A stretch of 64,000 nucleotides of DNA from a virus (IMGVR_UViG_3300044712_000264:1-64000), one strand, 5' to 3'; numbered from the stretch's first letter, positions 2,832 to 54,803 are shown. Translations and numbers: made by a program. The notes: generated by a model not told the origin, from the letters alone.

Positions 2832-2972
2832 TGTGCAAGTCCGGTGAGACGCGGCAAAAAGCCGCACCCCGCAAGGTCTGCGGCTTTTTCAATTCTGGTC
2901 ACCAGTTATGGCGGCCCGGATGGGAGGGTCCAGGCCCTGCCGGTCGCGCTCCGCGTCTCCCGGTCTTGCACA
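2832..2972 (+). ncRNA. c4: c4-type antisense RNA, locus A
   Basis: About 141 bases closed by a long-range stem. TGTGCAAG plus TCCGG (from 2833) pairs with CCGG plus TCTTGCACA (2960-2972), with one T-T mismatch. Inside are a strong GCCGCA/TGCGGC hairpin (about 2860-2886) and a conserved block shared with loci B and C, including CAGTTATG and TCCCGGTCTT (2958-2967). The P1/P7 c4 RNA is known to block translation of the linked antirepressor. Three such loci occur here and their stems co-vary. Family identity is inferred from structure, position and recall of the Rfam c4 motif. Confidence 0.75.
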
Positions 2973-2992
2973 CCCATTCGGGCTGCCGCCAA

Positions 2993-3002
2993 ATGTGCAA
3001 GT
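2993..3002 (+). promoter_or_regulatory. Predicted c4 target site, locus A
   Basis: ATGTGCAAGT repeats the 5' arm of the c4 RNA (2832-2841) and is complementary to its 3' arm CTTGCACA (2965-2972). It lies 42 bases before the HNH start codon, almost the same distance as at loci B and C. Pairing here would affect translation of the HNH/KilA-N mRNA. Confidence 0.65.
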
Positions 3003-3043
3003 TTGTCGGCAGTTGTTCCACAGAGACGACTGGAGATGCCATC

Positions 3044-3496
3044 ATGGCTAAAACAAACTTCGACCTCATTCGAGGTGACTTCCCCGATTCGTGTATTACT
3101 GGCAACGGAATTCCTGATGACGACGGATACTTACGAATCGGAATTGGTAGCAAAAAAGAGTGCAAAAGGTATTACCTGCACCGCCTCGTATTTCGTGCAT
3201 TCGTTGGCGAAATACCAGCCAAGCATGTTGTCATGCACACCTGCGATAACCCGGGATGTATCAACCCGAAGCATCTCAAAGTTGGCACGCACGACGACAA
3301 CATGCTCGACATGGTTGAAAAACGTCGCCACCAGTGGGGACAGGATCACTACAAAGCGAAACTCACAGAAACCCAAGTCAGGGAAATTCGGGAAGACAAG
3401 CGACTTCACAAAGAAATCGCTGCCGAATACGGGATTGTCCGATCAACTGTCTCCAACATCCGCGCAAAACGGATTTGGAAACACTTGGAGGATTAA
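3044..3496 (+). CDS. HNH endonuclease in the antirepressor operon
   Basis: 150 residues. HNH_3-like core: YYLHRLVFRAF, HVVMHTCDNPGCINPKHL, then a C-terminal helix-turn-helix-like tail (IAAEYGIVRSTVSNIRA) resembling the DNA-binding tails of phage HNH enzymes. Start ATG 3044 has GGAG about 8 bases upstream. The frame is open further upstream to 2831, but that part is the c4 RNA and leader. Because it lies between the c4 target and the KilA-N gene, its translation should be under the same antisense control. It looks like an insertion that took over the position of the antirepressor start. Confidence 0.88.
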   Translation: MAKTNFDLIRGDFPDSCITGNGIPDDDGYLRIGIGSKKECKRYYLHRLVFRAFVGEIPAKHVVMHTCDNPGCINPKHLKVGTHDDNMLDMVEKRRHQWGQDHYKAKLTETQVREIREDKRLHKEIAAEYGIVRSTVSNIRAKRIWKHLED

Positions 3497-3500
3497 GATC

Positions 3501-4076
3501 ATGTCGCAATCCGTCATCACCATCGGTGATTTTTCCGTTCGTCAACACGACGGCCTTTTCTCTCTAAATGATCTTCATAAAGCTGCTGGCGGAGAACTTC
3601 GCCATCGCCCAGTCGAATTCATACGACTTGAGCAAACACGGGCGCTTTTGAATGAATTGCAAAAAGGTGGGGATCACCACCTTTTCACGAATACGGTAAA
3701 AGGCCGAAACGGTGGAACTTACGTTTGCCGTGAACTGGTAATCGCTTACGCGGCCTGGATCAGCGCGGCGTTTCACCTCAAAGTCATTCGGGTGTTTCTC
3801 AACGCCAAAGCACACCCCCAGGTCGCAGCAACCCCCGCACCACCAAAGCGCAACGTGATTCGCTGCAAAGTCGAGTCCGTCTCCGTCACCATGCGCTTGA
3901 CCAGCGGCGGCGTGGGCTTCGGCATCCGACTCCAGGGCGACCACTACAACATGCACCGCTTCACACCCGGCGAGTCCATCGAACTCGAATACGCACAAGG
4001 CGCAACTCCCCTGGCTGATTTGCCTATAGGCGTGAACAGGATCGCACAACCAGGCAGGAAGGCCGCTACAGCATGA
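3501..4076 (+). CDS. KilA-N domain antirepressor-like protein
   Basis: 191 residues. The N-terminal ~100 residues are a KilA-N domain (FSLNDLHKAAGG, then RNGGTYVCRELVIAYAAWIS, FHLKVIRVF). Residues ~115-185 form a separate small domain (RCKVESVSV to ELEYAQGATPLADL) that also occurs at the N-terminus of the BRO antirepressor at 46365-47516. It follows the HNH gene by 4 bases. The expected role is antirepression or another DNA-binding regulatory function; KilA-N proteins are also known as kil-type growth inhibitors. A longer in-frame reading from 2658 is rejected because it would cross the c4 RNA and HNH gene. Confidence 0.85.
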   Translation: MSQSVITIGDFSVRQHDGLFSLNDLHKAAGGELRHRPVEFIRLEQTRALLNELQKGGDHHLFTNTVKGRNGGTYVCRELVIAYAAWISAAFHLKVIRVFLNAKAHPQVAATPAPPKRNVIRCKVESVSVTMRLTSGGVGFGIRLQGDHYNMHRFTPGESIELEYAQGATPLADLPIGVNRIAQPGRKAATA

Positions 4077-4175
4077 TTTTCAACCCGGCTAGGTTCGCTA
4101 CCGAAAAGCGGCTACTCCACCCGCCTGCCGGGGTGTTCTATGTGGGGGGACTATTGTTTTCTGGAGAAAAACAGT

Positions 4176-5099
4176 ATGCGTGATTACGGGAAAGTCCATA
4201 CGTCATTTTGGACAAGCCCAAACATTAGAGCGCTTTCAGATGATGGCCGTGCGCTGGCAATATATTTGTTGACATGCCCACACGGGACCATTGCCGGGGT
4301 ATTCAGACTGCCAGATGGATACGCTTGTGATGACTTGCAATGGGATTCTAAAAGGATAAAAAAAACCCTTTCGGAACTGTTGGCGAACGGTTTCGCAACC
4401 CGTTGCGAAGCTACAAAATGGGTATGGGTAACGAAACATTTCGTATGGAATCCACCAGAAAACCCAAATCAAAAAAAATCTGCATTAAAGGTTGTCATGC
4501 AAATTCCAGACGAGTGTTCATGGAAGGCTGATTTCATTGGTAAATGTGGCATTTATTTCGGAATTGATCCGTCCAAATCAGAACACTTGCGAAACCCTTC
4601 TGAAACCCTTCCAGAACCCTTGCCTAATCAGGAACAGGAACAGGATATAAACATCCTTACGTCCGTAGCCGACGGAATTTTGTCGCCGGACAAGCCGACG
4701 ACCGCAGTGGAGCAAGCAACTGCCGATCAATCGACAAAGGCAAATACCTCACCTGCACCACGATTTCCGCCTTGCCCAGCTGAGCAAATCGTCGAGCTGT
4801 ACCGGGAGGCGTTGCCGGAACTCCCCAACGTCCGGGTCATGGTTGACGACCGCAAACGTGCCATCAAAAAACGCTGGGAATGGGTGCTGTCGAGCACCAG
4901 ACCAGACGGAAGCCGCCGGGCAGAAAACGCACAACAGGCGGTTGACTGGTTCCGGGATTTCTTCGAGTTGGCCCGAGAAAACGATTTCCTCATGGGCAGA
5001 ACTCCCAAAGCAACCGGGCACAAAGGATGGACATGCGACATTGATTTTTTGATGACTGACAAAGGTTTGACGCAAGTTTTAGAAAAGGCAACAGCATGA
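4176..5099 (+). CDS. Replication initiation / helicase-loader-like protein
   Basis: 307 residues from ATG 4176, with GGAG 9 bases upstream; an in-frame GTG at 4140 lacks a site. The N-terminus (VHTSFWTSPNIRALSDDGR, LLTCPHGTIAGVFRLP) matches the winged-helix replication proteins found just before phage dnaB genes. Residues ~145-205 are a Pro/Gln/Thr-rich linker and the rest is a compact helical domain. Its last 4 bases overlap the DnaB start, so the two are co-translated. By analogy to lambda O or host DnaT it should recognise the origin or load the helicase. I see no obvious iteron array inside the gene. Confidence 0.7.
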   Translation: MRDYGKVHTSFWTSPNIRALSDDGRALAIYLLTCPHGTIAGVFRLPDGYACDDLQWDSKRIKKTLSELLANGFATRCEATKWVWVTKHFVWNPPENPNQKKSALKVVMQIPDECSWKADFIGKCGIYFGIDPSKSEHLRNPSETLPEPLPNQEQEQDINILTSVADGILSPDKPTTAVEQATADQSTKANTSPAPRFPPCPAEQIVELYREALPELPNVRVMVDDRKRAIKKRWEWVLSSTRPDGSRRAENAQQAVDWFRDFFELARENDFLMGRTPKATGHKGWTCDIDFLMTDKGLTQVLEKATA

Positions 5100-9700: not shown

Positions 9701-9702
9701 CC

Positions 9703-35700: not shown

Positions 35701-38700
35701 TACCGCAGCACAACCGGGAAGCGCTCCAGTTCAAGATGGAACAGGCCAAGACCAGCAAGAGCAAACCTTCGGACTGACCAGCCCGAACCGCTCAGATGTT
35801 CTGACGCAGCAGGCAGCGATTGAGGCCGAAGCAGCACGCAAAGAACAGGGCGGCGATAAACCTATCACGCGCAAGGTGACTGCGGATCAGGTTGACTTGT
35901 TCAATCCTCAAGGTGGATTGTTTGATGCGCCGGCAGATGATCCTGCCCCGCCACCAACCAATCTCAAGGAAGGATTGGAGAGGATAAGGGCGAAGAATGC
36001 GCCCGCAGAAAAATTACCAGCAGGCTGGACAGAAAGCGCGCCAGGGCGACTCGCAACAAACGAAGACCCCGCAACAGGCGGCATAGTGGATACCGCAATA
36101 GGGACCGGCAAGTGGTTTGCAATCAGCAATGAAACCAATGGACGGATACCTGGAGATTTCAATACAAGGGCAGAAGCTATTGCTGCACTCGGGACGCAGG
36201 ATAAGACAGGTAGCACGACAGACGCAACCGACTTAAACGCCATGTTTGACGATGTTTTGTCAGAAGAACTGGCAAGGCGTCAACCGGCAGAATCACCTAA
36301 GAGTGTTCCTGAAAAGATACGTGCAGCAAGAGCAAAGCGCAAGCAAGGCCCACGCACAGCCACCCAGGCCACAGTAAGCGCTGTAAAGAATACCGCATCG
36401 GCACTGAACAACGCAATCGACGGACTGGGCGCATTATTTGGCGGAAATACTAGCGGAAGGCTTGGTTCTGGTCTATCCTTTGACGAGGACACATACGCAA
36501 AGGCCAAGCCGCTATTCCAAGCTGCTATTGCCAATCTGGCAGACGCAGGCAGTGACATCAAGGAAGCCATGCGCGCCATTGTGAAGATGGTGTTAGACAA
36601 GTTTGGGAGTGCTGCTGCGCAAAATATGAAACCGTATGTTGTGCGGTTCATTCAAGATGTGCAAAGCGGAAACGATGCAGCGACAACCGATAATCATGGC
36701 AACGGAGTATCAAATGTACCAAGTACCGACAATAGTGTGGAACGAAATAGCGCAGTCGCAAGCGCTGAGCGAACCGTGGGGTACGCTATTCAGGATGACG
36801 CAGGAGGAACTACCGTCCGGCCTGGAGAAGCTGGTGGACGAACCACTGGAAGCACAGGGCGCGGACAACAGGACGGTGATAGCGTACCGACTGGTAGCAC
36901 CACTGCTACAGGAGAACGAGGCAATCAGCGACTACATCATGTTGGTGGACAATCCGAGCTTACGAGCATCGTTACCGGAGCTGACTTCAGTGAACGAGGC
37001 GGTGATTCTGGCATCACAGGAGTACCTCCTGAACCCATCTCAACAAGCCAAGTTGACGCAGCTGCTGACCAAAGCCATACAGGGTTAAAAGCTGGGATTG
37101 AGCGCGCACGCGCCAATAAAGTCCCGGTAACAACGGGCGACATCGATAACATCCGAGCCACGTTACCCCAGCTACTACCCGGCCAGCAAGAAGATGTAAA
37201 ACTGGCAGAAACACGCTTTGCCAAGGTTGACGGCTACGGAATGCTGTTTACCAATGGGACTGGTACAGGCAAGACATTTTCAGGTCTTGGAGTTATAAAG
37301 CGGTTTGCATTGCAAGGCAAGAACAACACGCTGATCGTTGCGCCAGATAACAAAATTGGAACCGACTGGATAGATGCAGGCAAGCGGCTTGGCCTGGATA
37401 TAACCTTGCTGAAAGACACCAAGGACTCAGGCAAGGGTATTGTCATCACGACTTACGCCAACCTTGGAGAGAACGATACTCTGGCAAGTCGCAAGTGGGA
37501 TTTGGTTGTATCAGATGAGGCGCACTCGCTCATGCAAGCGGCGAACGGTGAGCCGACAAGCTACCTGTACAACCTGCGCGCTATCACCAATCACCCGGAC
37601 GGCGCACATACCCGCTTCAACATGCTGCACCGTGCGGAACTTGATCGAGCCACAGCACTTGGCAAGGGAATAGAAGAAATCGAACGCGACATGTCAGCAT
37701 CGGACACAACCGATATGCGCCGTTCCTCACTCGAAGCCAAGAGCGAAAAGATGCAATCTGAGCTTGGTGATTTGCGTAAAAAACTCGATGCCGCCAAGGC
37801 CAAAGTACTGGCAGAAGTTAAAGCCAGCCAGGGTGCAGGCCGCACACGACTGGTCGCACTATCTGCTACGCCCTTCGCCTACGAAAAAACAATCGACTGG
37901 GCCAACGGCTACCTGTTTGACTACAACGAAGGGCAGGCAAGCGAAGAAGGATCATTCCGAGGCTACAACGCGGGCAGCAACAAAGACCGCTACATGATGC
38001 AGCACTTCGGTTACTCGATGCGCTACAACAAACTCACACAGCCTGATTCAAAGGTGGATCGCGGACTGATGCAGCGCCAGTGGAATGCCAGCCTGAAAAA
38101 GTCGGGCGCATTGTCGGGCCGGATGCTTGAGGTGAAACCCGACTATGACAGGCGCTTCATTTTGGTGGAATCAGCCATTGGCAACCGCATTGACGAAGCG
38201 CTGGATTGGATCAGCGAGCAACGACAGGCAGAAAAAGGCCAAGGCCCATATTCCGATCTTGGAGATGCGATCAATGAGCAATTCAAGTACCTGCAAAAAC
38301 GCTATCTACTGGAGGCGATCAAGGCCACTGAGGTAATTCCGATTGTGAAGCAGCACCTCGCAATGGGACGCAAGGTAGTGGTGTTCCACGATTACAAGAA
38401 GGGTGGAGGCTTCAATCCGTTTCGTGTCAATACGGCGGTGAAGTCGGACATGGCCGCTGCAGTGCGGGAGTTCGAAGCAAAGTTCAAGGACTTGGTGAAT
38501 GCGCCGCTTGGTTCTATGCCTTCGCCCATTGAGGTATTCAGCCGGGAATTACCACAGACTCTGTTGATAAATGGCGACGAAAAGCAAGCTGATTTACTCA
38601 AGCGCTACAAGTCGTTCCAAGACGATGCCAATGGGCCGCAGGTCATGCTGGTGCAGTCTGCCAAGAACAAAGGCTGGAGTGGGCACGACACCACAGGCAA

Positions 38701-41700
38701 GCATCAGCGTGTGCTAATCAACCTGGGGCAACCCACAGCCCCCACACTGGCGATACAGCAAGAGGGTCGAATCTACCGCACAGGGCAAGCATCAGACGCG
38801 ATCATGCGCTACATGAACACCGGTACCAACTGGGAGCGCTGGACGTTTGCAACCACCATTGCAGGGCGGGCAAGTACCGCCGAGAACCTTGGCATGGGAG
38901 AGATGGCGCGCGCGCTCAAAGACTCGTTCATCCAGTCGTTTGAAGAATCAGACGCTTACCCGCCAGGGCATGAAAACGAGGGCAAAGGCGGAAAGGAGCG
39001 AGACAAAGCCGCTAATGATGCGATCACCGAGTACGACCGGGCAAAGACCTTCTACTTCGGGCAACAGAAAAAGAACAGCAAAACCAAAGCGCAAGAGGGT
39101 GCCGACTACTTCGCCACGCCTGAGCCTATCGGCCTGAAAATGGCGCAATGGCTGGATGCGCGAGGCGGTGAGGATGTTCTTGAACCAAGCGCAGGGCATG
39201 GAGCAATTGCACGATGGATACCAGACAACACCAGCCGTACCGCAATTGAGCCAAGCCTGACGCTGCGCTCACGCATGGCAATGGTGATGAATCCTACCGA
39301 GGATCGCATTATTGATGGTACGTTTGAAGATCACCACGTTGGAAACAAGTACGACGGCATTGCGATGAATCCGCCATTTGGATCAGGCGGGAAGACGGCC
39401 ATTGACCATCTGGCAAAAGCTGCGACCCACTTGCGAGACGGTGGACGCATTGTTGCGCTGATACCCACCGGGCCAGCAGCAGATAAGAAGTTTGATAAGT
39501 GGTTTTATGACAAGAGCGAGAGGCCGGTCAAGCCACTATTCAAGTCTGATGCGGGCGATGTTCGTAAGGGCGATACGGTCTATGTCTACGATGAATATCA
39601 GAAGAAAGAACGGCCTTTTATTGTTGGGTCGTATGACTCAAAGAACAACCTCTTCTTTGACGTTGGTAGAACAATCGGATGGGGCACGCACGAAGTTCGT
39701 AGGGTTGAGCGCACAGGCACGCAAACCGAGTCATTCAACGCCGCAGAAGGCTTGCAGTTGGTTGCCAACATCAAACTGCCACAAGTTGCATTTGAACGCG
39801 CTGGAACGTCAGTAGCTACGCGCATTGTGGTTCTTGAGAAAGGTGGCGCAAATGTGATGCAGCGTGACCGGGATTACTCGGGTATCACGGACATCAACGA
39901 ACTGTTCGACAAACTTGAGCACCTGGACTTTGCAGCCAGAACCAAGCCGGTAGAAGCTGCGCCTGTTGAAGCTACAAAGGCTGAAAAGCCAGCAACAGCA
40001 CCCAAGCCCGCAAAGTCAGCCGCCAATGAAGGAGACGAAGTTTCTATCAACGGCAAGAAGTACGAAATCCAGATTTACACCACCAACGTAGGCAAGGCGA
40101 AGCGCGGTATTTGGATGGACTCAAAAACAGAGGCCAGCAAGTACAGCGCCCGCACATTCACGCACAGCTCCAACAAGGGCAAGTGGTTTGTTGATGAATA
40201 CTGGTTCCCGAAGGATTCTGAGATCATCAAACCATCCACACAACAATCCCACATCAGCAACGGCGACTCCAGCTACGAAGAGACTGCCAAGGTGCAAGCT
40301 GGCATCGAGGGCAAAAGCCTTATTGACGCAGCTCGATTCATTGAGCAAACAGGCACACCAGCACAGGCCGAGATTGCAAAGCAAGTCATCTCCAAACTGG
40401 AGCGATTACAGGCCAGTAGTGTCAAACTGGAATTGATCGTTGCGCATCGTGGCGACCAGGTTCCTGCACAAATGGGTAAGTCCAGGGGGTACACAGAATC
40501 CGGGTTTGACAACAAAGGCCGCGATATTACTGTGTGGGTAGCTGGTGCCGATGTGACTGGCCGGGTAGGGACGGATTACGAAACGGTGCTGCATGAGATG
40601 GTACACGCTGCGACGATGGGCGTTGTTCAGTTCGGTAGAACAAATCCCAATTCTTTGGCCGGTAAGCATGTCCGGGATCTGTCCGCCGTAACGAGCGCTA
40701 TATCCAGCCACATCATCGACAGGTTCGCCCAGGCCGACAGCGGCAAAACAGAATTGACCGAGTTTGAAAAGGATGTGCGAGCTGGGGCAAACAACGCCTT
40801 CCGTGGTATTGACGAGGTGCTTTCATGGGCTTTGACAAGTCCTCAAGCACAGTCATATCTTGAAGGGATACCATACAAAAACCAGAACCTGTGGACCAAG
40901 TTGGTGCAGGCGATTCGCACTCTGCTTGGCCTTTCGCCAACAGCAGACACGGCCTTGTCAGAAGTCTTGCGCGTTGCTGAAAACCTGATGGCATCCGATC
41001 TGAACGACCACGCTATGCAGGCATTTTGGCACAAGCGAGGGATAGGGATGAGCACCATTCAGGCGGCAGGCTCCATTGTCCTGCCAAAGAAAAACGGGCC
41101 GAAATCCCTAATCACAAACCAAGCCCTGCCAACAACATGGCAAGCACCAGATGCCACCAAGATGGACGACTTCATCTACTCGATGCAGGACAAGAACATC
41201 GACACGCGACGAGTCATTGACACCATCAACCAGACCATAGGGGCCATCAATGAGCAGCAAAACCCGTACCTGCAGGAAGAGTTGTACCACGGGCGCGCAG
41301 CCATGGCCACCAAGGAGTTCTTGGAGAAGCAGGTGCGCCCGTTGTTGGTTGAACTGCGCACACGCGGCATAACGATGGAGGACTTGGAAGCGTATCTGCA
41401 CAATCGACACGCCGAAGCGCGCAACATCCAGGCGGCGAAGATCAATCCCGACAACCAAGACATGCAGGACGGCGGCAGCGGCATCAAGACTGCCGATGCT
41501 CGCGCCTACCTTGCTGCATTGACCCCTGCGCAAACCACGGCATTCAAGTCGCTGGCGGCCAAGGTTGAGAAGATCACCCAATCCACCCGTGAGTTGCTGG
41601 TTTCCAGCGGTCTTGAAAAGCAGTCAACCATCGGAGCATGGGAACAAGCCTACGGCGACGAGTACGTCCCACTGCAACGTGAGGAAATGGAGAACGGCAT

Positions 41701-43831
41701 GGGCATCGGCCAGGGCATCAGCACCCGTGGAAGTGCCAGCAAGCGATTCATGGGAAGCGATAAGAAGGTGGTAAACATCTTCTCAAACATCGTCATGGCG
41801 CATGAGCGGGCCATCACCCGCAGCGAGAAAAAGCGTATTGGTGAAGCGCTCTACGGCCTGGTGCTCAAGGCGCCCAACCCCGACTTCTGGTTTGCAATTG
41901 ACCCTGCATTGCAGCAAAACCCGAAGAAGGTCATGGACACCATGATGCAGCTTGTCAACATGGGCCTGGACCCCGCAGACGCGGACAGCATTGCCAGAGA
42001 GCCGACGACACGCTACATCAACCCAATCACCAAGACGGTGGAGTCACGCATCAATCCAGCCATGCGCAATGCAGAAAACGTTCTGGCCGTTCGCATTGAT
42101 GGCGAGGATAAGTTCGTGTTCTTCAACAAGAAGGATGAGCGTGCCATGCGTATGGTCAAGGCGCTAAAAAATCTTGATTCTGACCAGTTGGGAGAGGTAA
42201 TGGGCGCTGTATCCAAGGCCACCCGCTACTTTTCGGCCATCAATACGCAGTTCAATCCGATCTTCGGCGTGACCAACCTGCTGCGCGACATTCAGACGGG
42301 CATGCTCAATCTGCAATCCACCGCACTCAAAGGCAAGCAAGGTGCCATCGCCAAGAACGTGGTACCGGCACTGATGGGCATCTATTCTGACTTGCGCAAA
42401 CACCGTGCAGGGAAAGCGGCAACATCTGACTATGCGAAGCTGTTCGAAGAGTTTCAGCGCGAAGGTGGCGCAACGGGATACCGTGATATGTTTGCCAATG
42501 CGAAAGAACGCGCAGACGCAATCGAGCAAGAGATCAAAGACATCGGCGCTGGCAAGGCCAAGCAGTTGGGTAAAGGAATCCTTGGCTGGTTGAGTGACTA
42601 CAACGAAGCAATGGAGAACTCTGTGCGATTGTCAGCGTACAAGGTTGCCAAGGAACAGGGCATGAGCAACCAGCAAGCTGCTAGCCTTGCCAAGAATCTG
42701 ACGGTGAACTTCAACCGCAAGGGGCAAGTGGCGCTACAGGCTGGTGCGCTGTATGCGTTCTTCAATGCCAGTGTGCAGGGCACTGCGCGCATCGCCCAGA
42801 CTCTTACCGAAGATGGCAAGCTGTCTACCGTTGGAAAGCAGATCCTCATCGGAGGATTGACGCTGGGTGCCATGCAGGCCGTATTACTGGCCGCTGCGGG
42901 GTTTGACGATGGGGAGCCTCCAGACTTCGTGCGCGAGAGGAATCTGATTATCCCGATTGGCGGAAGCAAGTATGTCTCCATCCCCATGCCGCTGGGCTTC
43001 CACGTGATACCAGGCCTTGCGCGCATTCCTACAGAGTGGGCCATGGGCGGATTCAAGAACACGCCAAAGCGCATCGCCCAGATCGCAGCCATGTTCGCTG
43101 AGGCCATGAACCCCATTGGGTCTGCGGGATTGTCGATGCAAACACTGGCGCCCACAGTGCTCGATCCGTTTGCTGCTTTGACTGAAAACAGAGACTGGAC
43201 AGGTAAGCCGATTGCCAAGTTGGACTTTAACTCCCTGCGCCCCACTGCGGGCCACACGCGGGCAAAGGACACCGCCACGCCCTGGGCTACGTTCCTATCC
43301 AAAGCAGTCAACTACGCAACAGGTGGAGACGAGTACAAACCAGGAGTTGCGAGTCCAACGCCAGACCAGATTGATTACCTGATCGGCCAGGTTACGGGTG
43401 GCGTTGGCCGCGAGATCAGCAAGGCATCACAGGTGGTGAAATCAGCAACGACAGGTGAGGATTTGCCACTGTTCAAGACACCATTGATTGGGCGCTTTGT
43501 CGGAACCACAGAAGGCAATGCAGCCGAATCAAGCCGGTTCTATGAGAACCTGAAACAGATCGGCGCGCACAAAGCCGAGATTGATGGCCTCAAGCGGGAC
43601 CACAAGCCATTGGAAATCATTCGATACCTGCGCGAGAACCCGGATGCGCAACTGTTGACTGCTGCGACGCACGTTGAAGAGCAGATTCAGAAATTGACGC
43701 ACCTACGGCGCGCACTGGTTAAGAAAGATACGCCACCGGAGCGCGTTAAGGCAATAAACGATCAGATCACAGCCAGGATGGCGCAGTTCAACAAGATGGT
43801 GAAGCAGAGGGAGTTGGCGGGGGCGGGGTGA
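32714..43831 (+). CDS. Giant polyvalent virion protein: helicase, methylase, protease-like and LPD domains (DarB-like)
   Basis: 3,705 residues in one frame. A glycine-zipper segment lies at ~132-175. A SNF2/DEAD helicase has Walker A GTGTGKT (Lys1520), DEAH at 1601-1604 and motif VI QQEGRIYRTGQ at 2015-2025. An adenine-methylase-like domain has EPSAGHGA near 2157 and NPPF at 2219-2222. A zinc-protease-like HEMVH is at 2627-2631. The last ~1,000 residues are helical, with membrane-like stretches (ILIGGLTLGAMQAVLLAAA). P1 DarB, which combines methylase and helicase and protects injected DNA, is the closest known idea. Low-complexity linkers at residues ~603-635, 960-1021 and 1334-1458 cover three small genes in another frame. 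Confidence 0.88.
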   Translation: MAFEFDSSTAQAENTFDWATAVPYESPKPPSLTDRLGFGIRNTIDYGRIAATNDKDEIAGIVADVDSRRTAPTHEQVQMQKEYDPYRQRANEADGVVDTTLAYGSAAAKRLGQFAQHPREFAGMIAENLPNSAPGMAAGLAGAALGSQVLPGWGTAVGGVVGGTAGGYAVEQGSSMLEQIQKEAQARGINPQDKAAMSAMIGEKYSEFLPASQRKGVGTAGTDALLNTLTMGVAGAGERVLAKEARALAEGVKDGSISATKAAEISADISARNAAMNTLGAKTLRGAGITGSEMAGEGLSEAAGQKYAYGNVDAGDVIDESLLGLGQGVGMAAGHKAIDRVTGASDSNQIDDYLKATAPQQQETPPDQPPLIGSNPDAGAMVVFKDGTTAYRSDFENALAAMPEDERAATMARVMGYAPQSANPDESAINPDDPAIPPQQTKSEAMGLVPTDAPSITNAAIAAVETGAHDIEQENAAQEQASTLEQAAHATKVEAPKVDQKNIAIEIAKSLREGIAADAQAGVIRPPQEQERSMLLGLLDVQDGGNLSNQELESRLSAKQRKDFEWLQNFSASESIATARRNAQQQPTTQSDLPTTPTTGETYGNQNPSTQQKISSQQSPGQDANADAQGQKGLLNPQTLAQHPYSTNSGDAQNNDQTTQAIAPEAQQPAQQPGAKPTPAPLSVPDRLRAQREQLSAPALPSINLPKDERQRQQALKGELRDRLGLTPGQTQAAPKRSPFKEFIVANGISDSPADVVGESNAFRANNILPRAFRKNGLSLDALAERAVQAGYITQDDLDAGNAHTVLASMIQDEVAGRKVHLPMNMQTDDAAAKMESYRRAEMEDAADKYGLPYDQYTRTDNLASMVRRVQTRLEQPDPTGLLKPERILRNAQDAVARIERKRAQESERYQQFAKLTSNEQDAAIDVLTGDNGHPIFARRADLDAHAAWHQAQQQWSDLYGEAYTPDNAEQQSVGKDQAPTAGITEASPGSAQGNDTAAQPGSAPVQDGTGQDQQEQTFGLTSPNRSDVLTQQAAIEAEAARKEQGGDKPITRKVTADQVDLFNPQGGLFDAPADDPAPPPTNLKEGLERIRAKNAPAEKLPAGWTESAPGRLATNEDPATGGIVDTAIGTGKWFAISNETNGRIPGDFNTRAEAIAALGTQDKTGSTTDATDLNAMFDDVLSEELARRQPAESPKSVPEKIRAARAKRKQGPRTATQATVSAVKNTASALNNAIDGLGALFGGNTSGRLGSGLSFDEDTYAKAKPLFQAAIANLADAGSDIKEAMRAIVKMVLDKFGSAAAQNMKPYVVRFIQDVQSGNDAATTDNHGNGVSNVPSTDNSVERNSAVASAERTVGYAIQDDAGGTTVRPGEAGGRTTGSTGRGQQDGDSVPTGSTTATGERGNQRLHHVGGQSELTSIVTGADFSERGGDSGITGVPPEPISTSQVDAAADQSHTGLKAGIERARANKVPVTTGDIDNIRATLPQLLPGQQEDVKLAETRFAKVDGYGMLFTNGTGTGKTFSGLGVIKRFALQGKNNTLIVAPDNKIGTDWIDAGKRLGLDITLLKDTKDSGKGIVITTYANLGENDTLASRKWDLVVSDEAHSLMQAANGEPTSYLYNLRAITNHPDGAHTRFNMLHRAELDRATALGKGIEEIERDMSASDTTDMRRSSLEAKSEKMQSELGDLRKKLDAAKAKVLAEVKASQGAGRTRLVALSATPFAYEKTIDWANGYLFDYNEGQASEEGSFRGYNAGSNKDRYMMQHFGYSMRYNKLTQPDSKVDRGLMQRQWNASLKKSGALSGRMLEVKPDYDRRFILVESAIGNRIDEALDWISEQRQAEKGQGPYSDLGDAINEQFKYLQKRYLLEAIKATEVIPIVKQHLAMGRKVVVFHDYKKGGGFNPFRVNTAVKSDMAAAVREFEAKFKDLVNAPLGSMPSPIEVFSRELPQTLLINGDEKQADLLKRYKSFQDDANGPQVMLVQSAKNKGWSGHDTTGKHQRVLINLGQPTAPTLAIQQEGRIYRTGQASDAIMRYMNTGTNWERWTFATTIAGRASTAENLGMGEMARALKDSFIQSFEESDAYPPGHENEGKGGKERDKAANDAITEYDRAKTFYFGQQKKNSKTKAQEGADYFATPEPIGLKMAQWLDARGGEDVLEPSAGHGAIARWIPDNTSRTAIEPSLTLRSRMAMVMNPTEDRIIDGTFEDHHVGNKYDGIAMNPPFGSGGKTAIDHLAKAATHLRDGGRIVALIPTGPAADKKFDKWFYDKSERPVKPLFKSDAGDVRKGDTVYVYDEYQKKERPFIVGSYDSKNNLFFDVGRTIGWGTHEVRRVERTGTQTESFNAAEGLQLVANIKLPQVAFERAGTSVATRIVVLEKGGANVMQRDRDYSGITDINELFDKLEHLDFAARTKPVEAAPVEATKAEKPATAPKPAKSAANEGDEVSINGKKYEIQIYTTNVGKAKRGIWMDSKTEASKYSARTFTHSSNKGKWFVDEYWFPKDSEIIKPSTQQSHISNGDSSYEETAKVQAGIEGKSLIDAARFIEQTGTPAQAEIAKQVISKLERLQASSVKLELIVAHRGDQVPAQMGKSRGYTESGFDNKGRDITVWVAGADVTGRVGTDYETVLHEMVHAATMGVVQFGRTNPNSLAGKHVRDLSAVTSAISSHIIDRFAQADSGKTELTEFEKDVRAGANNAFRGIDEVLSWALTSPQAQSYLEGIPYKNQNLWTKLVQAIRTLLGLSPTADTALSEVLRVAENLMASDLNDHAMQAFWHKRGIGMSTIQAAGSIVLPKKNGPKSLITNQALPTTWQAPDATKMDDFIYSMQDKNIDTRRVIDTINQTIGAINEQQNPYLQEELYHGRAAMATKEFLEKQVRPLLVELRTRGITMEDLEAYLHNRHAEARNIQAAKINPDNQDMQDGGSGIKTADARAYLAALTPAQTTAFKSLAAKVEKITQSTRELLVSSGLEKQSTIGAWEQAYGDEYVPLQREEMENGMGIGQGISTRGSASKRFMGSDKKVVNIFSNIVMAHERAITRSEKKRIGEALYGLVLKAPNPDFWFAIDPALQQNPKKVMDTMMQLVNMGLDPADADSIAREPTTRYINPITKTVESRINPAMRNAENVLAVRIDGEDKFVFFNKKDERAMRMVKALKNLDSDQLGEVMGAVSKATRYFSAINTQFNPIFGVTNLLRDIQTGMLNLQSTALKGKQGAIAKNVVPALMGIYSDLRKHRAGKAATSDYAKLFEEFQREGGATGYRDMFANAKERADAIEQEIKDIGAGKAKQLGKGILGWLSDYNEAMENSVRLSAYKVAKEQGMSNQQAASLAKNLTVNFNRKGQVALQAGALYAFFNASVQGTARIAQTLTEDGKLSTVGKQILIGGLTLGAMQAVLLAAAGFDDGEPPDFVRERNLIIPIGGSKYVSIPMPLGFHVIPGLARIPTEWAMGGFKNTPKRIAQIAAMFAEAMNPIGSAGLSMQTLAPTVLDPFAALTENRDWTGKPIAKLDFNSLRPTAGHTRAKDTATPWATFLSKAVNYATGGDEYKPGVASPTPDQIDYLIGQVTGGVGREISKASQVVKSATTGEDLPLFKTPLIGRFVGTTEGNAAESSRFYENLKQIGAHKAEIDGLKRDHKPLEIIRYLRENPDAQLLTAATHVEEQIQKLTHLRRALVKKDTPPERVKAINDQITARMAQFNKMVKQRELAGAG
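34521..34619 (+). CDS. Small basic protein embedded in the giant gene (other frame)
   Basis: 32 residues, MATKTPVPSKKSAPSKAPAK and a tail ending GKKGC. A very good ribosome site precedes it: AGGAG (34510-34514), 6 bases, ATG. The frame is +1 relative to the giant gene, whose own translation here is Gln/Thr/Pro/Ser low complexity. Small Lys/Pro/Ala-rich proteins of this kind occur as separate genes in phages. Whether it is expressed is not known. Confidence 0.45.
   Translation: MATKTPVPSKKSAPSKAPAKMPMQMPKGKKGC
35592..35777 (+). CDS. Small helical protein embedded in the giant gene (other frame)
   Basis: 61 residues: MAKPTPPTMPNNRVSEKIKH, then LPLESQKRVLEALKEM and a Lys-rich tail. GGAG lies 8 bases before ATG 35592. 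It reads as a normal amphipathic helical protein, whereas the giant frame over the same bases is Gln/Gly/Thr/Ala linker. Same relative frame as the other two embedded genes. Confidence 0.5.
   Translation: MAKPTPPTMPNNRVSEKIKHLPLESQKRVLEALKEMIPQHNREALQFKMEQAKTSKSKPSD
36714..37088 (+). CDS. 124-residue protein embedded in the giant gene (other frame)
   Basis: Start ATG 36714 has GGAG 6 bases upstream; an in-frame ATG at 36696 has none. The product (MYQVPTIVWNEIAQSQALSE, EELPSGLEKLVDEPLEAQG, AISDYIMLVDNPSLRASLPE) has ordinary, balanced composition with predicted helices. The giant frame in the same stretch is Gly/Ser/Thr/Asp-rich and featureless. This asymmetry argues that the embedded frame is the older or constrained one. 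Function unknown. Confidence 0.58.
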   Translation: MYQVPTIVWNEIAQSQALSEPWGTLFRMTQEELPSGLEKLVDEPLEAQGADNRTVIAYRLVAPLLQENEAISDYIMLVDNPSLRASLPELTSVNEAVILASQEYLLNPSQQAKLTQLLTKAIQG

Positions 43832-46096: not shown

Positions 46097-46368
46097 ATCT
46101 TCCCCTTGCGAATTAGACCCGGCGCGTGGCCGGGCGTGGTTTTAATTCCGTCGAATTCGACAGAATTAGACTTGCATCCGGCTTGCTGCAAACGCTTGGA
46201 CAAGGCATCAACGCCAGCGCTCACAATGGCATCCACCTTGCAACAGCGCCCGAACGGCATGTCTTTGGCCGCGCATGTGCATTCTCCCGGAGCTGCCACT
46301 TTTACTAACTCAGACGCCGGGATTCCGCGTTCAATGTCTGCATCCTGAAATGGTGTGGATGCACTCAT
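46093..46368 (-). CDS. Hypothetical protein of the BRO operon
   Basis: 91 residues, ATGA-coupled at both ends. CTCAAKDMPFGRCCKVDAIV gives a Cys cluster (possible metal site). The C-terminal ~20 residues are encoded by a terminator-like hairpin plus copy 2 of the 20-bp repeat, so its 3' end may have been altered. Confidence 0.68.
   Translation of the reverse strand: MSASTPFQDADIERGIPASELVKVAAPGECTCAAKDMPFGRCCKVDAIVSAGVDALSKRLQQAGCKSNSVEFDGIKTTPGHAPGLIRKGKI
46131..46150. repeat. 20-bp direct repeat, copy 2
   Basis: Identical to 45765-45784, 366 bp away. It also lies next to a GC hairpin (46108-46133, CCGGC/GCCGG), so each copy looks like the tail of a terminator. Confidence 0.9.
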
Positions 46369-47516
46369 GCTACTACCTCCACTTTGGCAGGCAACACCAG
46401 ATCAAGCAGTTCTTGGAACTTGCTGACATACCACTCTGGCTGCGTTTCCTTCGGGTTGCTTGGATGCGTTGCGTTCTTGCCGTACTCCAAGTTGCGCACA
46501 GATTTGAATGTCTTTGTCCCGTTTGTGGACTTGCGCTCTACATCCTCCAGAATTCCATTTTCTACCAGTAAGCGATTGAACTTCACGGCACTCATACCAA
46601 CATCAAACTCAGCCAACAAAGCGCTTGCCGTTTTTGTCACTTCGCTCGATCCGCTGGTAGAGCTTGCCGGCGCATCGGTGGCGTAATGTGGCAGCAGGCC
46701 GGCAACGCCAAGCTGTTGCTCGATCCGCTGATACCCACCAAGCACAGCCGAAGGTGCCAGCTTCAAATCCTTGGCAGCGCTGCGAAGCAACAGGACACAG
46801 GCCGACACGTGGTCGCGGTTGCTTGAAATCCTTTTCTTTGGTTCCGGCTGTGGCTTCGCGCTGTAGCTCCCAGTCTTGCGGATCGTCGGCAACACTTCTT
46901 CAAAAAACCACGCCTCGAACTTTTGGGCTTCTGGCAGTTCGCTTTTGACTATCAGCCGGTACACGTCTGGTTCCGTCAGAACGCGCACATCCTGCATTCC
47001 TCCAGCGGTTTGAAGGGGGTAGCGTTTTGCTACCCCCTTGCAATGTTGCTTAATAGCGTCACTGGCATTGACGTATCCGAGCGCTTCGCACACGTCTTTC
47101 CCGACAAACAGAGGCTCGCCATCTTCGTCAGTTACGACACGGATAGTTTTCGACTCAAAATTGAAAGGGGTGATTGAATTCATGATTTCTTTCTTTGCAG
47201 AAGGTTGTGGTGGTTGGGGAACTGTTGTGACTGCATCGGCGTGATAGCCAGCCGTGTAGTCGGCCAAAGGGTTTTGACCTTTGGGATATTCGAGAATCAG
47301 CCTGTCGTCCTTCTTGAAGTCAGGGCGACCTGGAAGGTTGAAGATAGTGACTCCAAAGCGGACATTTCCGCTGACGACATCCAGATGCAAACTGCCGTCT
47401 GGTTTAGTCGTGACCGATTGAACCGTGACCTTGAGGTGGGCGACGGTTGATTGATCGGGTGCAGGGGAAAAGAAAGGCAAGGCAGGCGCGGGCGCGCCAA
47501 GAGATGGTTTAGCCAT
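46365..47516 (-). CDS. BRO-N antirepressor with extra N-terminal module
   Basis: 383 residues. Residues ~25-100 (LKVTVQSVTT to LEYPKGQNPLADY) resemble the C-terminal domain of the KilA-N protein at 3501. Residues 112-215 are a BRO-N domain (VVTDEDGEPLFVGKDVCEALGY, ALKQ-type YPLQTAGGMQDVRVLTEPD, FEAWFFEEVLPTIRKTG). Residues ~240-380 are the antirepressor C-terminal domain with GMSAVKFNRLLVENGILEDV, also found alone at 52345. BRO antirepressors bind and inactivate the phage repressor. It is preceded by a c4-type leader and target site. Confidence 0.88.
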   Translation of the reverse strand: MAKPSLGAPAPALPFFSPAPDQSTVAHLKVTVQSVTTKPDGSLHLDVVSGNVRFGVTIFNLPGRPDFKKDDRLILEYPKGQNPLADYTAGYHADAVTTVPQPPQPSAKKEIMNSITPFNFESKTIRVVTDEDGEPLFVGKDVCEALGYVNASDAIKQHCKGVAKRYPLQTAGGMQDVRVLTEPDVYRLIVKSELPEAQKFEAWFFEEVLPTIRKTGSYSAKPQPEPKKRISSNRDHVSACVLLLRSAAKDLKLAPSAVLGGYQRIEQQLGVAGLLPHYATDAPASSTSGSSEVTKTASALLAEFDVGMSAVKFNRLLVENGILEDVERKSTNGTKTFKSVRNLEYGKNATHPSNPKETQPEWYVSKFQELLDLVLPAKVEVVA

Positions 47517-47556
47517 GATTTACTCTTGTCAACAGGTTGTAAACCTGCCGCCAACG

Positions 47557-47565
47557 CTTCCAACG
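47557..47565 (-). promoter_or_regulatory. Predicted c4 target site, locus B
   Basis: The minus strand reads CGTTGGAAG, complementary to the c4 3' arm CTTCCAACG (47586-47594). It lies 41 bases before the BRO start codon. Confidence 0.62.
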
Positions 47566-47585
47566 TTGGTGACAGACCGTGTGGG

Positions 47586-47731
47586 CGTTGGAAGACCGGG
47601 ACAAGGACCGGCGCATCTTGCGATGCCACCCACACAGCCCGTCATAACTGAGCATGTGTGTTGCGCATTAAAAAAGCAGCTAACCGTTACGGCGCTGCTT
47701 GTCGTTGCGCCTTGTCTTTTGGGCTTCCACA
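47586..47731 (-). ncRNA. c4: c4-type antisense RNA, locus B
   Basis: About 146 bases. The 5' arm TGTGGAAGCC (near 47721-47731) pairs with the 3' arm GGTCTTCCA. It contains TCCCGGTCTT (47592-47601 on the minus strand) and the CAGTTATG block, as at loci A and C. Short overlapping frames across it (for example 47529-47732) resemble Icd/Ash-like readings, probably translation of the RNA region rather than a true gene. Confidence 0.72.
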
Positions 47732-47741: not shown

Positions 47742-47769
47742 ATTGTAGCGTAGACTTTTTCATCTGCAA
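47742..47769 (-). promoter_or_regulatory. Predicted promoter of c4/BRO operon
   Basis: The minus strand reads TTGCAG (47764-47769), 16 bases, TACAAT (47742-47747). The c4 5' arm begins about 11 bases downstream. Confidence 0.65.
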
Positions 47770-50313: not shown

Positions 50314-50496
50314 TTAATGCCTGTGATTCGAGCGCGTCGGGATTGTCCCCCGGCGCTCCATGTTGCGCAGGGTCTGCGGCGTGCATGTGTACCGTGCGCA
50401 CATCTCTTCGGTTGACAGCCACGGCGACAGGCTGGCAATCAGGCGCTCAACTTCCATGCTAAGGCGGCGCACTTCCAATATCGCTGCTTCGGTCAT
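50314..50496 (-). CDS. Small helix-turn-helix protein (MerR-like)
   Basis: 60 residues. STEEMCARYTCTPQTLRNME and RRGTIPTRSN is a compact excisionase/MerR-like helix-turn-helix. The start overlaps the RNA ligase stop by 4 bases. Confidence 0.72.
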   Translation of the reverse strand: MTEAAILEVRRLSMEVERLIASLSPWLSTEEMCARYTCTPQTLRNMERRGTIPTRSNHRH

Positions 50497-51080
50497 TTAA
50501 CCCCCTTGTGCCCATCGTTGCCCAGCGTCTTCTTGAAGCCCACATTCCCAGCGGTGTGGAACACAACCAAGCCCTCTGGCTTCATAAATCCGGGCGCTGC
50601 CACGCTTCCAGCAGCCTGAAGGTAGTTCATCCACATATCCACGGTGTTCGTGTCAAACGTGCATCTGTCTAACACCGGCACAAGTCCGCAACAAGGCGGC
50701 AAGAAGTCTTGTGTGCGTGTGACTCGCGGGTCCATAGTAGGGTACGTTTTAGGTTCTGTGCCATGAAGCGCCCAGCGTTGCACATTGAACAGGCTGAACC
50801 GTTTTTCTTTCAGCCCGTAATTGCGCTGGATGCCTTGACCCCACCACTCGCCGAAGTGACGACCTGGCCCAAGAGTTAGCAGTTCGTCCCTGTGCGCTTC
50901 GGCCCATTTTGCAAAGCCATGATTGTCATCTGTTGTGGTGATCCAGCGTGTGCGGCTCCCGATAAACATGGTTTTCCCATCATCGCTGATGTAAATCTGT
51001 GCATTCGTGCCGTCTATTTTTTCGGTGATTATCACTTCACGGGACAATCGCGCCATCTTAGGAAATTCTCTAAATTCCAT
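50493..51080 (-). CDS. RNA ligase family protein
   Basis: 195 residues. Nucleotidyltransferase motif I is EKIDGTN with Lys21 as the AMP-acceptor. FGEWWGQGI fits motif III/IIIa and KPEGLVVF motif IV; the C-terminal Lys-rich tail fits motif V. Such phage enzymes seal or repair RNA nicks, for example tRNA cut by host defence nucleases. No kinase or tRNA gene accompanies it, so the substrate is unknown. ATGA-coupled to the downstream gene. Confidence 0.85.
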   Translation of the reverse strand: MEFREFPKMARLSREVIITEKIDGTNAQIYISDDGKTMFIGSRTRWITTTDDNHGFAKWAEAHRDELLTLGPGRHFGEWWGQGIQRNYGLKEKRFSLFNVQRWALHGTEPKTYPTMDPRVTRTQDFLPPCCGLVPVLDRCTFDTNTVDMWMNYLQAAGSVAAPGFMKPEGLVVFHTAGNVGFKKTLGNDGHKGVK

Positions 51081-51929: not shown

Positions 51930-51933
51930 TTTG

Positions 51934-52773: not shown

Positions 52774-52785
52774 GGTGTTGTGGTA

Positions 52786-52812
52786 ATAAAAAACCCGCTG
52801 TTGGAGCGGGTT
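52786..52812 (-). terminator. Intrinsic terminator in the leftward operon
   Basis: AACCCGCT/AGCGGGTT (52792-52812) with T run on the minus strand (52786-52793). Confidence 0.85.
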
Positions 52813-52830
52813 GGGTGGGGTGTGAGTTGG

Positions 52831-53106
52831 TTATCCCTGCAAACGATGCCTGGTCACATTCGCAACAGCAGGAAACGGACTCGCAACCGTGGTTATCCGT
52901 TCAACCGTCGGCTCCAAAAAATTGCTGTGCTCGTTGCCGGTGATCTTCAAATAGTCGCTTTCCACCCTTGCTGTGTCCACCAGCACACTAGCCACACTGG
53001 CCACTGCTTTGGCGCGTTCGATGTCCATCGGTGTTTCTTTGTTTCGCAAATCTGCAAGTGTGTCCAGCAGCGACTGGCGTACTTGGTCAATGTGGGGATT
53101 TGTCAT
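52831..53106 (-). CDS. Hypothetical helical protein
   Basis: 91 residues from ATG 53106 (AAGGAAA upstream; 4-base overlap with the HNH gene). VRQSLLDTLADLRNKETPMD, IERAKAVASVASVLVDTARV is a helical pair common in phage hypothetical proteins; the C-terminus is basic. Not assigned. Confidence 0.7.
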   Translation of the reverse strand: MTNPHIDQVRQSLLDTLADLRNKETPMDIERAKAVASVASVLVDTARVESDYLKITGNEHSNFLEPTVERITTVASPFPAVANVTRHRLQG

Positions 53107-53570
53107 GCGGTTTCCTTTTTGATGCGGTTGACTTGGCGCATGATTGCGCCTTTGAGTTGATAAAGTTTTCCAAGTTCGGTGTTTCTCCATACGCTGTTAC
53201 GGCGCATGTTTTCGTGCCTTGTGATGCACTCCAGTCTGTCTGCCGTGACTTCTTCTTCCGCTACGGTTTTCATGCCTCTACGAAACACAACAATGTGGCC
53301 ATCAGGGATGGGGCCGTGTGCTGCTTGCCACACAAGCCGGTGTACTGGCGTCCAGCGGCGCGTAGTCGGCAGCGATTGGTCATCGGTCATCTTGCGTTCC
53401 AGGTAGCCGTCTTTGCTGATGCGCAGCGTGCCGATTGGCACATAGTTGTGCTGCGCCGCTCCAGACATGTGCCCTTTCTTGAAGCGGGTTTCGTGGCTAC
53501 GTCCACCAGAGTCGAAATTGATTCCTTTGTTCCATGGTGTCTGGCCTGGTTTGAATGATGTTTTGTTCAT
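53103..53570 (-). CDS. HNH endonuclease (third in the window)
   Basis: 155 residues from ATG 53570. NUMOD-like N-terminus (FKPGQTPWNKGI, HETRFKKGHMSG) followed by the HNH core VHRLVWQAAHGPIPDGHIVV, RLECITRHENM. It is probably a homing-type nuclease next to the AntA antirepressor locus. ATGA-coupled to the gene downstream. Confidence 0.88.
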   Translation of the reverse strand: MNKTSFKPGQTPWNKGINFDSGGRSHETRFKKGHMSGAAQHNYVPIGTLRISKDGYLERKMTDDQSLPTTRRWTPVHRLVWQAAHGPIPDGHIVVFRRGMKTVAEEEVTADRLECITRHENMRRNSVWRNTELGKLYQLKGAIMRQVNRIKKETA

Positions 53571-53580
53571 TTTGGGCAAT

Positions 53581-53605
53581 AAAAAGCCCGCATCAGCGGG
53601 CCATT
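53581..53605 (-). terminator. Intrinsic terminator after the AntA gene
   Basis: GCCCGC/GCGGGC stem (53586-53601) and a T run on the minus strand. Confidence 0.82.
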
Positions 53606-53629
53606 GGTTGGTTACAGAAACAGGGGGTT

Positions 53630-54586
53630 TCAGTTCGTTATGCGCTGCATCCTTTGGGCCAGTCTGCTGTTGCAGGCGGCTGCAAGTATTGCCAGTTCGT
53701 GGTTACTCACCAGCATGTCACCTTCGCGCCCAATGGCAACAGCCAGCTTCTGCACTGGCATTGCAATAGCGTCTGTCTCTAACTGTTCAGCGTGTGGCTT
53801 CACGACAGTATCGTCACGGCCATCAGCCATGAACGAAAGCAGCCAGCGCTCATTCCTCCAGCTTTTACCTGCTTGCAGCAGCGTCTTGAACATGGTCTCT
53901 TGCACTTTTGCTGCTACCTGGTTGGAAGCCTCCAATGCTTGATAAATTTTGTCCTGGTTTGTTGGTGTATCGGGTGCTGGCAAGGTTGGAACCTCATTTG
54001 GTAAGTGTTTCTGAATCAAGGTGGCAATGCTCTGGTCGTCAAGCTTGCCTTGCAGGTAGGCCACGGCGTCGGCAAACTTAGACGGGTGCAGCAGCTCATA
54101 TTTGTTGCATCCCATCTTGCGCTGGAATCGCGTCCAGGTGCTCGGGTAGTCCTGCTTGCCACTGGCGACGATCAAATCGACCAGCTCTTTCAGGTGCTGC
54201 TTCTGCGCCGGGCTTATGCGGTCGTAGGGCAACTTACAAGGAATGCTTGACAGTTGCACCTGTTTTTCACAAGCGATGAAGTAACGCCGGGCTTCGCGCC
54301 CTTTGTCGTTGTTTTCCACCATCGCCAGCTCTTTGGCCATGTCCAGGGTCAGGTGGTAATCAATTGCAGCGCCGCGATTGCCGCTCGCCAATTCGGGCGA
54401 GCGGGAAATGCTCAGAAAATCCACACCTTCCACAAACTTGAATTTTTTGATGCGGCCTTTGATCCAGTTTGAGAAGTCGCGCAACACTTCCATAAAGGTG
54501 TGCAGCGTGCGAGCGTCGCAAAGTTGAACGGATTGATCGTTGAGAGTCCCAGTAAAAACGGGGACGAGTGCGAGAGTTTCAGCCAT
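53630..54586 (-). CDS. ant: AntA/AntB-family antirepressor
   Basis: 318 residues from ATG 54586, GGAGG 7 bases upstream. The N-terminal ~100 residues are AntA: LCDARTLHTFMEVLRDFSNW, FVEGVDFL, YHLTLDMAKELAMVEN, KGREARRYFIACEKQ. The C-terminal part has the DNA-binding-like WTRFQRKMGCNKYELL segment. P1 Ant inactivates the CI repressor. Preceded by a c4-type RNA and target site; terminator follows. Confidence 0.9.
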   Translation of the reverse strand: MAETLALVPVFTGTLNDQSVQLCDARTLHTFMEVLRDFSNWIKGRIKKFKFVEGVDFLSISRSPELASGNRGAAIDYHLTLDMAKELAMVENNDKGREARRYFIACEKQVQLSSIPCKLPYDRISPAQKQHLKELVDLIVASGKQDYPSTWTRFQRKMGCNKYELLHPSKFADAVAYLQGKLDDQSIATLIQKHLPNEVPTLPAPDTPTNQDKIYQALEASNQVAAKVQETMFKTLLQAGKSWRNERWLLSFMADGRDDTVVKPHAEQLETDAIAMPVQKLAVAIGREGDMLVSNHELAILAAACNSRLAQRMQRITN

Positions 54587-54627
54587 GATTGGCCTCCAGT
54601 TGTGTCGGTTTGAAAACCGCACACCCG

Positions 54628-54634
54628 CTTTCAA
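54628..54634 (-). promoter_or_regulatory. Predicted c4 target site, locus C
   Basis: The minus strand reads TTGAAAG, complementary to CTTTCAA of the c4 3' arm (54657-54663). It lies about 41 bases before ant. Confidence 0.62.
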
Positions 54635-54656
54635 TCGGGTGGCGACTTGAACAGGG

Positions 54657-54803
54657 TTGAAAGACCGGGACACTGGCGGAGGCCATTAACCGGCGGGCTT
54701 GCGCCCCCCTATTCAAGCCACCATAAACTGGGGCACGAACAAAAAAGCCGCAAACCTTTGCGGTGATGCGGCTTTGCGCCGCCAGCGTCTTCAGGCTTTC
54801 AAT
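54657..54803 (-). ncRNA. c4: c4-type antisense RNA, locus C
   Basis: About 147 bases. The 5' arm ATTGAAAGCC (54794-54803) pairs with the 3' arm CGGTCTTTCAA. The inner GCCGCA/TGCGGC hairpin and conserved TCCCGGTCTT (54661-54670, minus strand) and CCAGTTTATGG blocks are shared with loci A and B. The ant gene follows. Confidence 0.75.

Follow-up and report, generated by a model that had tools for sequence, protein, structure and literature searches.

The c4 RNA of phages P1 and P7 (Rfam family C4, RF01695) is an antisense RNA of three stems that carries the segments a' and b' in loops, with its target sites a1 and b1 upstream, a2 and b2 at the first ribosome-binding site, and an antirepressor operon downstream. 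In P1/P7, RNase P trims C4 to ~77 nt, b' blocks the ribosome-binding site and a' gives specificity (PMC5320573), and a change of 4 nt between P1 and P7 limits c4 specificity (PMC5320573; PMC12197685). The same organization was found at three loci of the viral stretch IMGVR_UViG_3300044712_000264, a 65,022-bp virus record of which the window covers the first 64,000 nt: U1 (plus strand, from 2832), U2 (minus strand, 47557-47731), and U3 (minus strand, 54628-54803). The virus is very probably a phage with three independent c4-type cassettes, each C4 RNA silencing its own operon. Unlike P1 with its one unit, it has three, with arms that do not match one another and three antirepressor classes.

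One C4 each was found in P1 (68.8 bits), N15, and Gifsy-1, as an earlier note on this DNA had stated for P1. N15, phiV10, SfV, and cdtI resemble the window in that an isrK-like leader directly precedes their C4 (68-82 bits), and in phiV10 a Bro-N gene follows c4, as in U2; each examined phiV10, SfV, or cdtI locus held one unit, however, and N15 one in its whole record. The isrK-orf45-anrP region of Gifsy-1 has a matching layout, but isrK in the window scores below the family cut-off; IsrK of Gifsy-1 was described as a unique RNA that targets the mRNA it belongs to and was not compared with c4 (PMC4825925). The CI RNA of P4, with seqA and seqC, is likewise a processed antisense RNA that pairs up- and downstream of itself (PMC4825925); it acts through transcription termination, and a terminator and an antiterminator are predicted here. 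Acinetobacter baumannii AB5075 expresses many C4-like RNAs (PMC5320573). Its Group 1, a large set of C4-type RNAs that share a genome but vary in a', was read in PMC5320573 as possibly co-opted bacterial small RNAs, whereas here three lie in one phage with their targets intact. The Group 1 RNAs may simply belong to the c4 units of a number of prophages; the text of PMC5320573 gave no match to the word "prophage".

The Infernal search suggested in the earlier note gave matches to the Rfam C4 model at all three intervals above the curated gathering cut-off of 45 bits (scores in Table 1), so that the proposed c4 identity holds. The E-values over the whole window were 2.8e-7 for U1, 1.4e-9 for U2, and 7.9e-10 for U3, and no fourth match to this model was found elsewhere in the record. 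The minimum free energy folds showed the canonical three stems (z-scores against shuffled sequences in Table 1), and in each RNA folded alone a' was unpaired in the multiloop and b' was placed in the loop of the third hairpin (P3). The open frame running through C4, comparable to "orf45" in Gifsy-1, showed no conservation, spanning 47, 38, and 3 codons for U1, U2, and U3. Individually the three loci are ordinary c4 units; their number and combination are unusual.

The a arms proposed earlier for U1 and U3, and a2 and a' of U2, were found at the positions given. In U2 the downstream arm and a' were borne out, but the upstream arm reads TGTGGAAG, not TTGGAAG, and six of its bases pair. A second arm, b, which the earlier note had missed, was present in all three units: the b' segment of the P3 loop (TCGCGCTCCGCGTCTC in U1, TCCTTGTC in U2, and GGCCTCCGCCAGTGTC in U3) matches b1 in the leader and b2 in the Shine-Dalgarno region, and it covaries. 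In each of the three units, 40 to 42 nt separate a2 and the start codon. Cross-pairing was scored as the longest Watson-Crick run between core arms in position-limited windows, each cognate pair being compared with the best non-cognate pair in its row. In the order U1/U2/U3, cognate runs were 8/6/7 versus 5/4/5 for a1, 8/8/7 versus 5/4/4 for a2, 9/7/7 versus 6/4/4 for b1, and 6/6/8 versus 4/4/5 for b2. The cognate partner was favored in 12 of the 12 rows, in agreement with the compensatory covariation within one genome that had been claimed; with long segments, the conserved GT/CCC flanks matched everything. Arms were also taken by one rule from 79 distinct C4 units of P1, N15, Gifsy-1, bacterial genomes, and viral records. 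The mean cognate run was 6.6 to 7.3 bp, compared to 3.9 to 4.2 bp after 10,000 partner permutations (z = 21 to 28 for each of a1, a2, b1, and b2). Arm covariation is thus a hallmark of the C4 family, seen here three times in one genome.

Orthogonal repression by the three C4 RNAs, as predicted in the earlier note, is well supported in silico, since cognate exceeds non-cognate pairing in all rows, and orthogonality of the three circuits is likely; the further step of that note, to three independent induction inputs, goes too far. Because 4 nt separates P1 from P7, the differences of U1, at several of the 8 a' positions and in a very different b', predict orthogonal circuits. The a' cores of U2 and U3 are one base apart (CTTCCAAC versus CTTTCAAC), so this pair would lean more on b' and be the likeliest to cross-talk. 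None of the 32 co-resident C4 pairs matched in both arms, with the automatic arm parse failing for some units (G097a, G104b, G109b, G115b, and others); random pairs also seldom matched, and selection for orthogonality between co-resident units was not demonstrated in this set.

An antirepressor operon lies directly downstream of each C4. Bro-N and AntA are the first cistrons of U2 and U3, and in U1 the KilA-N gene is second, behind an HNH endonuclease gene in the place where P1/P7 have icd. Of the earlier claim that each unit controls a different antirepressor, the distinct families KilA-N, Bro-N, and AntA stood, but the c4-controlled start in U1 is that of HNH; the KilA-N protein is a putative antirepressor by inference only. 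Bro-N, P22_AR_N, KilA-N, pRha, AntA, and ORF6N all recurred among 78 proteins at or near c4-controlled starts, so that c4 is promiscuous toward antirepressor class, and HNH as the first cistron was found only in this phage. The HNH_3 genes at 3044-3496 (+) and 53103-53579 (-) adjoin two of the three antirepressors, and these endonucleases are possible agents in moving the cassettes. Amino acids 111-189 of the KilA-N protein resemble amino acids 17-107 of the Bro-N protein (31% identity, E 5e-7 in a single comparison), and the two proteins may have a common unnamed domain at swapped ends, C-terminal in KilA-N and N-terminal in Bro-N. Right after the KilA-N stop, an Rfam int-alpA RNA (4082-4148, +; 51 bits, cut-off 35.8) runs into the gene start at 4140.

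Table 1. Coordinates of the three c4 units, their leaders, promoters and genes, and the candidate repressor in the window
Feature	Position	Strand	Sequence, pairing or support
U1 a1 target	2832..2839	+	TGTGCAAG; 8 bp with a'
U1 a'	2965-2972	+	CTTGCACA; partner of a1/a2
U1 a2 target	2994..3001	+	TGTGCAAG; 8 bp with a'
U1 b1 target	2846..2854	+	GAGACGCGG; 9 bp with b'
U1 b2 target	3023..3035	+	GAGACG..GGAG, covers Shine-Dalgarno GGAG; pairs with b'
U2 a1 target	47724..47731	-	TGTGGAAG; 6 bp with a'
U2 a'	47587-47594	-	CTTCCAAC; partner of a1/a2
U2 a2 target	47557..47564	-	GTTGGAAG; 8 bp with a'
U2 b1 target	47710..47716	-	GACAAGG; 7 bp with b'
U2 b2 target	47523..47530	-	GACAAGAG, ribosome-binding region; 6 bp with b'
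U3 a1 target	54796..54803	-	ATTGAAAG, includes TTGAAAG (54796-54802); 7 bp with a'
U3 a'	54657-54663	-	CTTTCAA; partner of a1/a2
U3 a2 target	54628..54635	-	ATTGAAAG, includes TTGAAAG (54628-54634); 7 bp with a'
U3 b1 target	54779..54789	-	GACGCTGGCGG; 11 bp with b' including one G-U, longest Watson-Crick run 7
U3 b2 target	54591..54606	-	GACACAACTGGAGGCC, covers Shine-Dalgarno GGAGG; run of 8 bp with b'
U1 C4 antisense RNA	2904..2993	+	RF01695 52.6 bits; fold z -3.6; b' loop 2944-2959, a' 2965-2972
U2 C4 antisense RNA	47565..47649	-	RF01695 61.9 bits; fold z -5.2; b' loop 47600-47607, a' 47587-47594
U3 C4 antisense RNA	54635..54728	-	RF01695 62.9 bits; fold z -5.2; b' loop 54669-54684, a' 54657-54663
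U1 leader antiterminator/terminator, isrK-like	2851..2889	+	GCGGC-5 nt-GCCGC versus AAAGCCGC...GCGGCTTTTT; isrK 24.8 bits, below cut-off
U2 leader antiterminator/terminator, isrK-like	47670..47711	-	isrK 25.9 bits, below cut-off
U3 leader antiterminator/terminator, isrK-like	54741..54782	-	isrK 42.8 bits, E 6.7e-6, cut-off 50
U1 probable sigma-70 promoter	2778..2807	+	TTGCAC - 18 nt - TATACT; consensus match only; scanner scores TGCACA - 17 - TATACT
U2 probable sigma-70 promoter	47742..47769	-	TTGCAG - 16 nt - TACAAT; by eye, under scanner threshold
U3 possible sigma-70 promoter	54861..54887	-	ATGCAA - 15 nt - TACAAT; weak, by eye, not found by scanner
HNH endonuclease, first cistron under U1	3044..3496	+	Pfam HNH_3 6e-14
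KilA-N protein (191 aa), second U1 cistron, probable antirepressor	3501..4076	+	Pfam KilA-N 3.9e-20; phrog_129
Bro-N antirepressor (383 aa) under U2	46365..47516	-	Pfam Bro-N 5.3e-23; phrog_130 anti-repressor Ant 9.5e-59
AntA antirepressor (318 aa) under U3	53630..54586	-	Pfam AntA 5.2e-24; phrog_5817
S24-peptidase/HTH repressor, candidate antirepressor target (putative role)	939..1688	-	Pfam Peptidase_S24 2.8e-20, HTH_3 2.5e-8

The record is the genome of a single F116-like temperate podovirus of 65 kb. A tandem repeat of ~23-24 bp (GCCACCGGTCATCGTTGCGGAGT) occurs at both record ends (window 1-120; record 64681-65022), and a circular genome was probably opened inside this terminal array. The terminase is 73-75% identical to those of F116 and 8P, a P22-type portal and Phage_capsid_3 are present, and the size is close to that of F116 (65,195 bp) and of the long terminase relatives, mostly 60 to 67 kb; the record length, shared end repeat, and size thus argue for one genome. 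One integrase, one S24 repressor, and a lysozyme gene were also found. Tandem prophages as the source of the three C4 units were excluded by the 65,022-bp length, the single set of terminase, portal, capsid, and integrase, and the matching end repeats. Comparison with relatives points to a host that is probably beta- or gammaproteobacterial. The window also encodes a large polyvalent protein of 3705 amino acids with LPD38 and helicase-like (ResIII) domains (32714-43831, +) and an RNA ligase-like protein (50493-51080, -; phrog_548, 8e-29).

Among 50 viral records related through the terminase, 1 had a C4, and none of 38 terminase relatives had AntA; inheritance within the lineage was rejected on these counts. 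Recent duplication of one unit was excluded by mutual identities of 55 to 62% (the mean over all C4 units being 53%) and by separate tree positions, U2 standing far from U1 and U3 and the nearest unit to U1 belonging to another phage (80%, G140). The three c4-antirepressor cassettes were probably gained separately, given the rarity of C4 in the lineage and the absence of three units from 48 other C4-bearing viral records. Two units above the cut-off were found in 6 of these 48 records, which were collected by DNA pattern or antirepressor, and three in none; the counts are lower bounds because many of the records are fragments. With two per phage record not being rare, three units are an extension and no new principle. 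No close relative of the cassettes turned up when named phages were searched at the DNA level. Bacterial genomes held up to eight C4 units, including pairs less than 60 kb apart on one contig, and two C4s 11 kb apart are listed for Xylella (PMC12189769); in the literature covered, which was partial, no paper describing several c4 units in one phage was found. In one Acinetobacter genome (G025:C14:314500-319500), two C4 units ~0.7 kb apart on opposite strands have the same b' and different a'.

The leaders upstream of the three C4 RNAs are isrK-like by position and architecture only, the gathering cut-off of isrK (RF01394, 50 bits) not being reached in the window and that of c4-a1b1 (RF03163, 46.7 bits) likewise (24.3 bits, at U3 only). 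Elsewhere, isrK matched directly upstream of C4 at 17 of 20 loci (11 above the cut-off) and at a further 9 of 10, including SfV, phiV10, and cdtI, and it also precedes C4 in N15, P1, and Gifsy-1. This co-occurrence indicates that the isrK family is probably the leader half of c4 units; Rfam places isrK outside the C4 clan, and a 2025 review has IsrK and c4 as separate entries (PMC12197685). Most leaders contain a short helix (GGCGC/GCGCC, GCGGC/GCCGC, and others) that lies just 3' of b1 or overlaps it and that competes with the 5' arm of a terminator. This antiterminator pairing, which overlaps the terminator arm, covaries across units (z 4.9 and p 5e-5, or p 3.5e-4 for 28 distinct arms). A terminator was not called in 25 of 89 leaders, including that of P1, where GCGG/CCGC followed by a T-run was seen by eye. 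Because b1 adjoins or overlaps the antiterminator, C4 bound to b1 could favor termination upstream of C4, a predicted negative feedback.

In Gifsy-1 (NC_010392 34131-34316, minus strand), isrK scored 79.3 bits, c4-a1b1 overlapped it with 48.1 bits, and C4 followed 25 nt downstream with 69 bits; the characterized IsrK is thus the leader, with a1 and b1, that belongs to a C4 unit, and "orf45"/STnc1160 overlaps C4. With mutant positions computed from the start of the isrK match at 34316, the published pairs G28/C162 and G31/C159 coincide precisely with a1 (UUGGCG) and a' (CGCCAA) in the C4 match, A107, where "orf45" starts, corresponds to the conserved AUGG of C4, and STnc1160, a processed RNA of ~80 nt, comes from the C4 stretch. 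The double mutants were at 224 and 327 versus 4 (PMC4825925); they restore a1-a' but not a2-a', so their failure to return fits a c4 reading. The term "c4 RNA" is unmentioned in PMC4825925, where IsrK is likened to P4 seqA/CI. The Gifsy-1 arrangement, with IsrK as the leader and "orf45"/STnc1160 overlapping C4, suggests c4 units with a built-in decoy or attenuator.

We propose that in each unit the promoter would yield a transcript of the leader (a1, b1, and an intrinsic terminator), C4, and a2/b2, which cover the ribosome-binding site of the first gene. From this transcript C4 would be excised, as by RNase P in P1, and pairing of a'/b' with a2/b2 would shut off translation of HNH-KilA-N, Bro-N, or AntA. 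With distinct a' and b' that match their own targets only, each C4 would silence only its own operon in vivo, and the proteins are predicted to inactivate a repressor. Several observations weigh against this proposal: the promoter matches of U2 and U3 are weak, the first gene of U1 encodes an HNH endonuclease and no antirepressor, and U1 and U3 have overlapping RNAduplex energies for their GC-rich b' arms, so that b by itself does not discriminate fully. Most of the closest lineage relatives, moreover, lack C4, and the units could accordingly be passengers and not integrated controls. That they are decaying modules with no regulatory role in this phage would agree with the rarity of C4 in the lineage and with the two unpaired positions in a1 of U2, but every unit retains its four arms, and folds and reading frames are intact, which makes this improbable. 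Chance inverted repeats are practically out of the question and were ruled out by the C4 covariance-model matches, with E-values of 1e-7 to 1e-10, alongside the 12 cognate pairings in 12.

The leader might also make each unit a two-way switch, the terminated leader of IsrK type titrating C4 as a decoy, and C4 on b1 freeing the 5' arm of the terminator and attenuating its own transcript. This extends the proposed silencing and does not negate it; we regard it as a tentative possibility. The isrK matches upstream of C4 and the antiterminator covariation speak for it, and in Gifsy-1 IsrK in trans lifts anrP translation 139-fold and transcription 8-fold, IsrK with the a1 mutations G28A and G31A is inactive in trans, and with the a' mutations C162U and C159U expression is derepressed, at 484 and 926 against 4 (PMC4825925). 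In cis, however, G28A and G31A raise basal expression to 93 and 218 from 4, an effect not expected of a pure decoy, so the decoy stays hypothetical, and co-expressed STnc1160 failed to counter IsrK (PMC4825925); in the window, isrK scores lie under the cut-off and the U3 leader folds no better than shuffles. A role mainly against other phages or prophages, with C4 silencing the antirepressor mRNA of superinfecting relatives and the carried antirepressors hitting foreign repressors, is consistent with the precedent of P1/P7 immunity (PMC5320573; PMC12197685), with the acquired appearance of the cassettes (C4 in 1/50 and AntA in 0/38 relatives), and with units hardly more alike than C4 units in general. 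It seems unlikely, since every C4 comes with a cis target and an antirepressor of its own, for which self-control is more economical; no systematic search for phages with identical arms was made.

Silencing of each operon by its own C4 would mean that one phage can combine several antisense RNA switches that are probably orthogonal and guard a different antirepressor class each. The three units are ready-made RNA pairs for working out specificity rules of a' versus b'. The link between isrK and c4 ties a well-studied Salmonella prophage RNA to the c4 RNA of P1 and gives the a1/b1 sites a testable role. Should the two-way switch be true, three mutually orthogonal antisense/anti-antisense switches would reside in one phage, and the names IsrK and c4 would stand for a single system.

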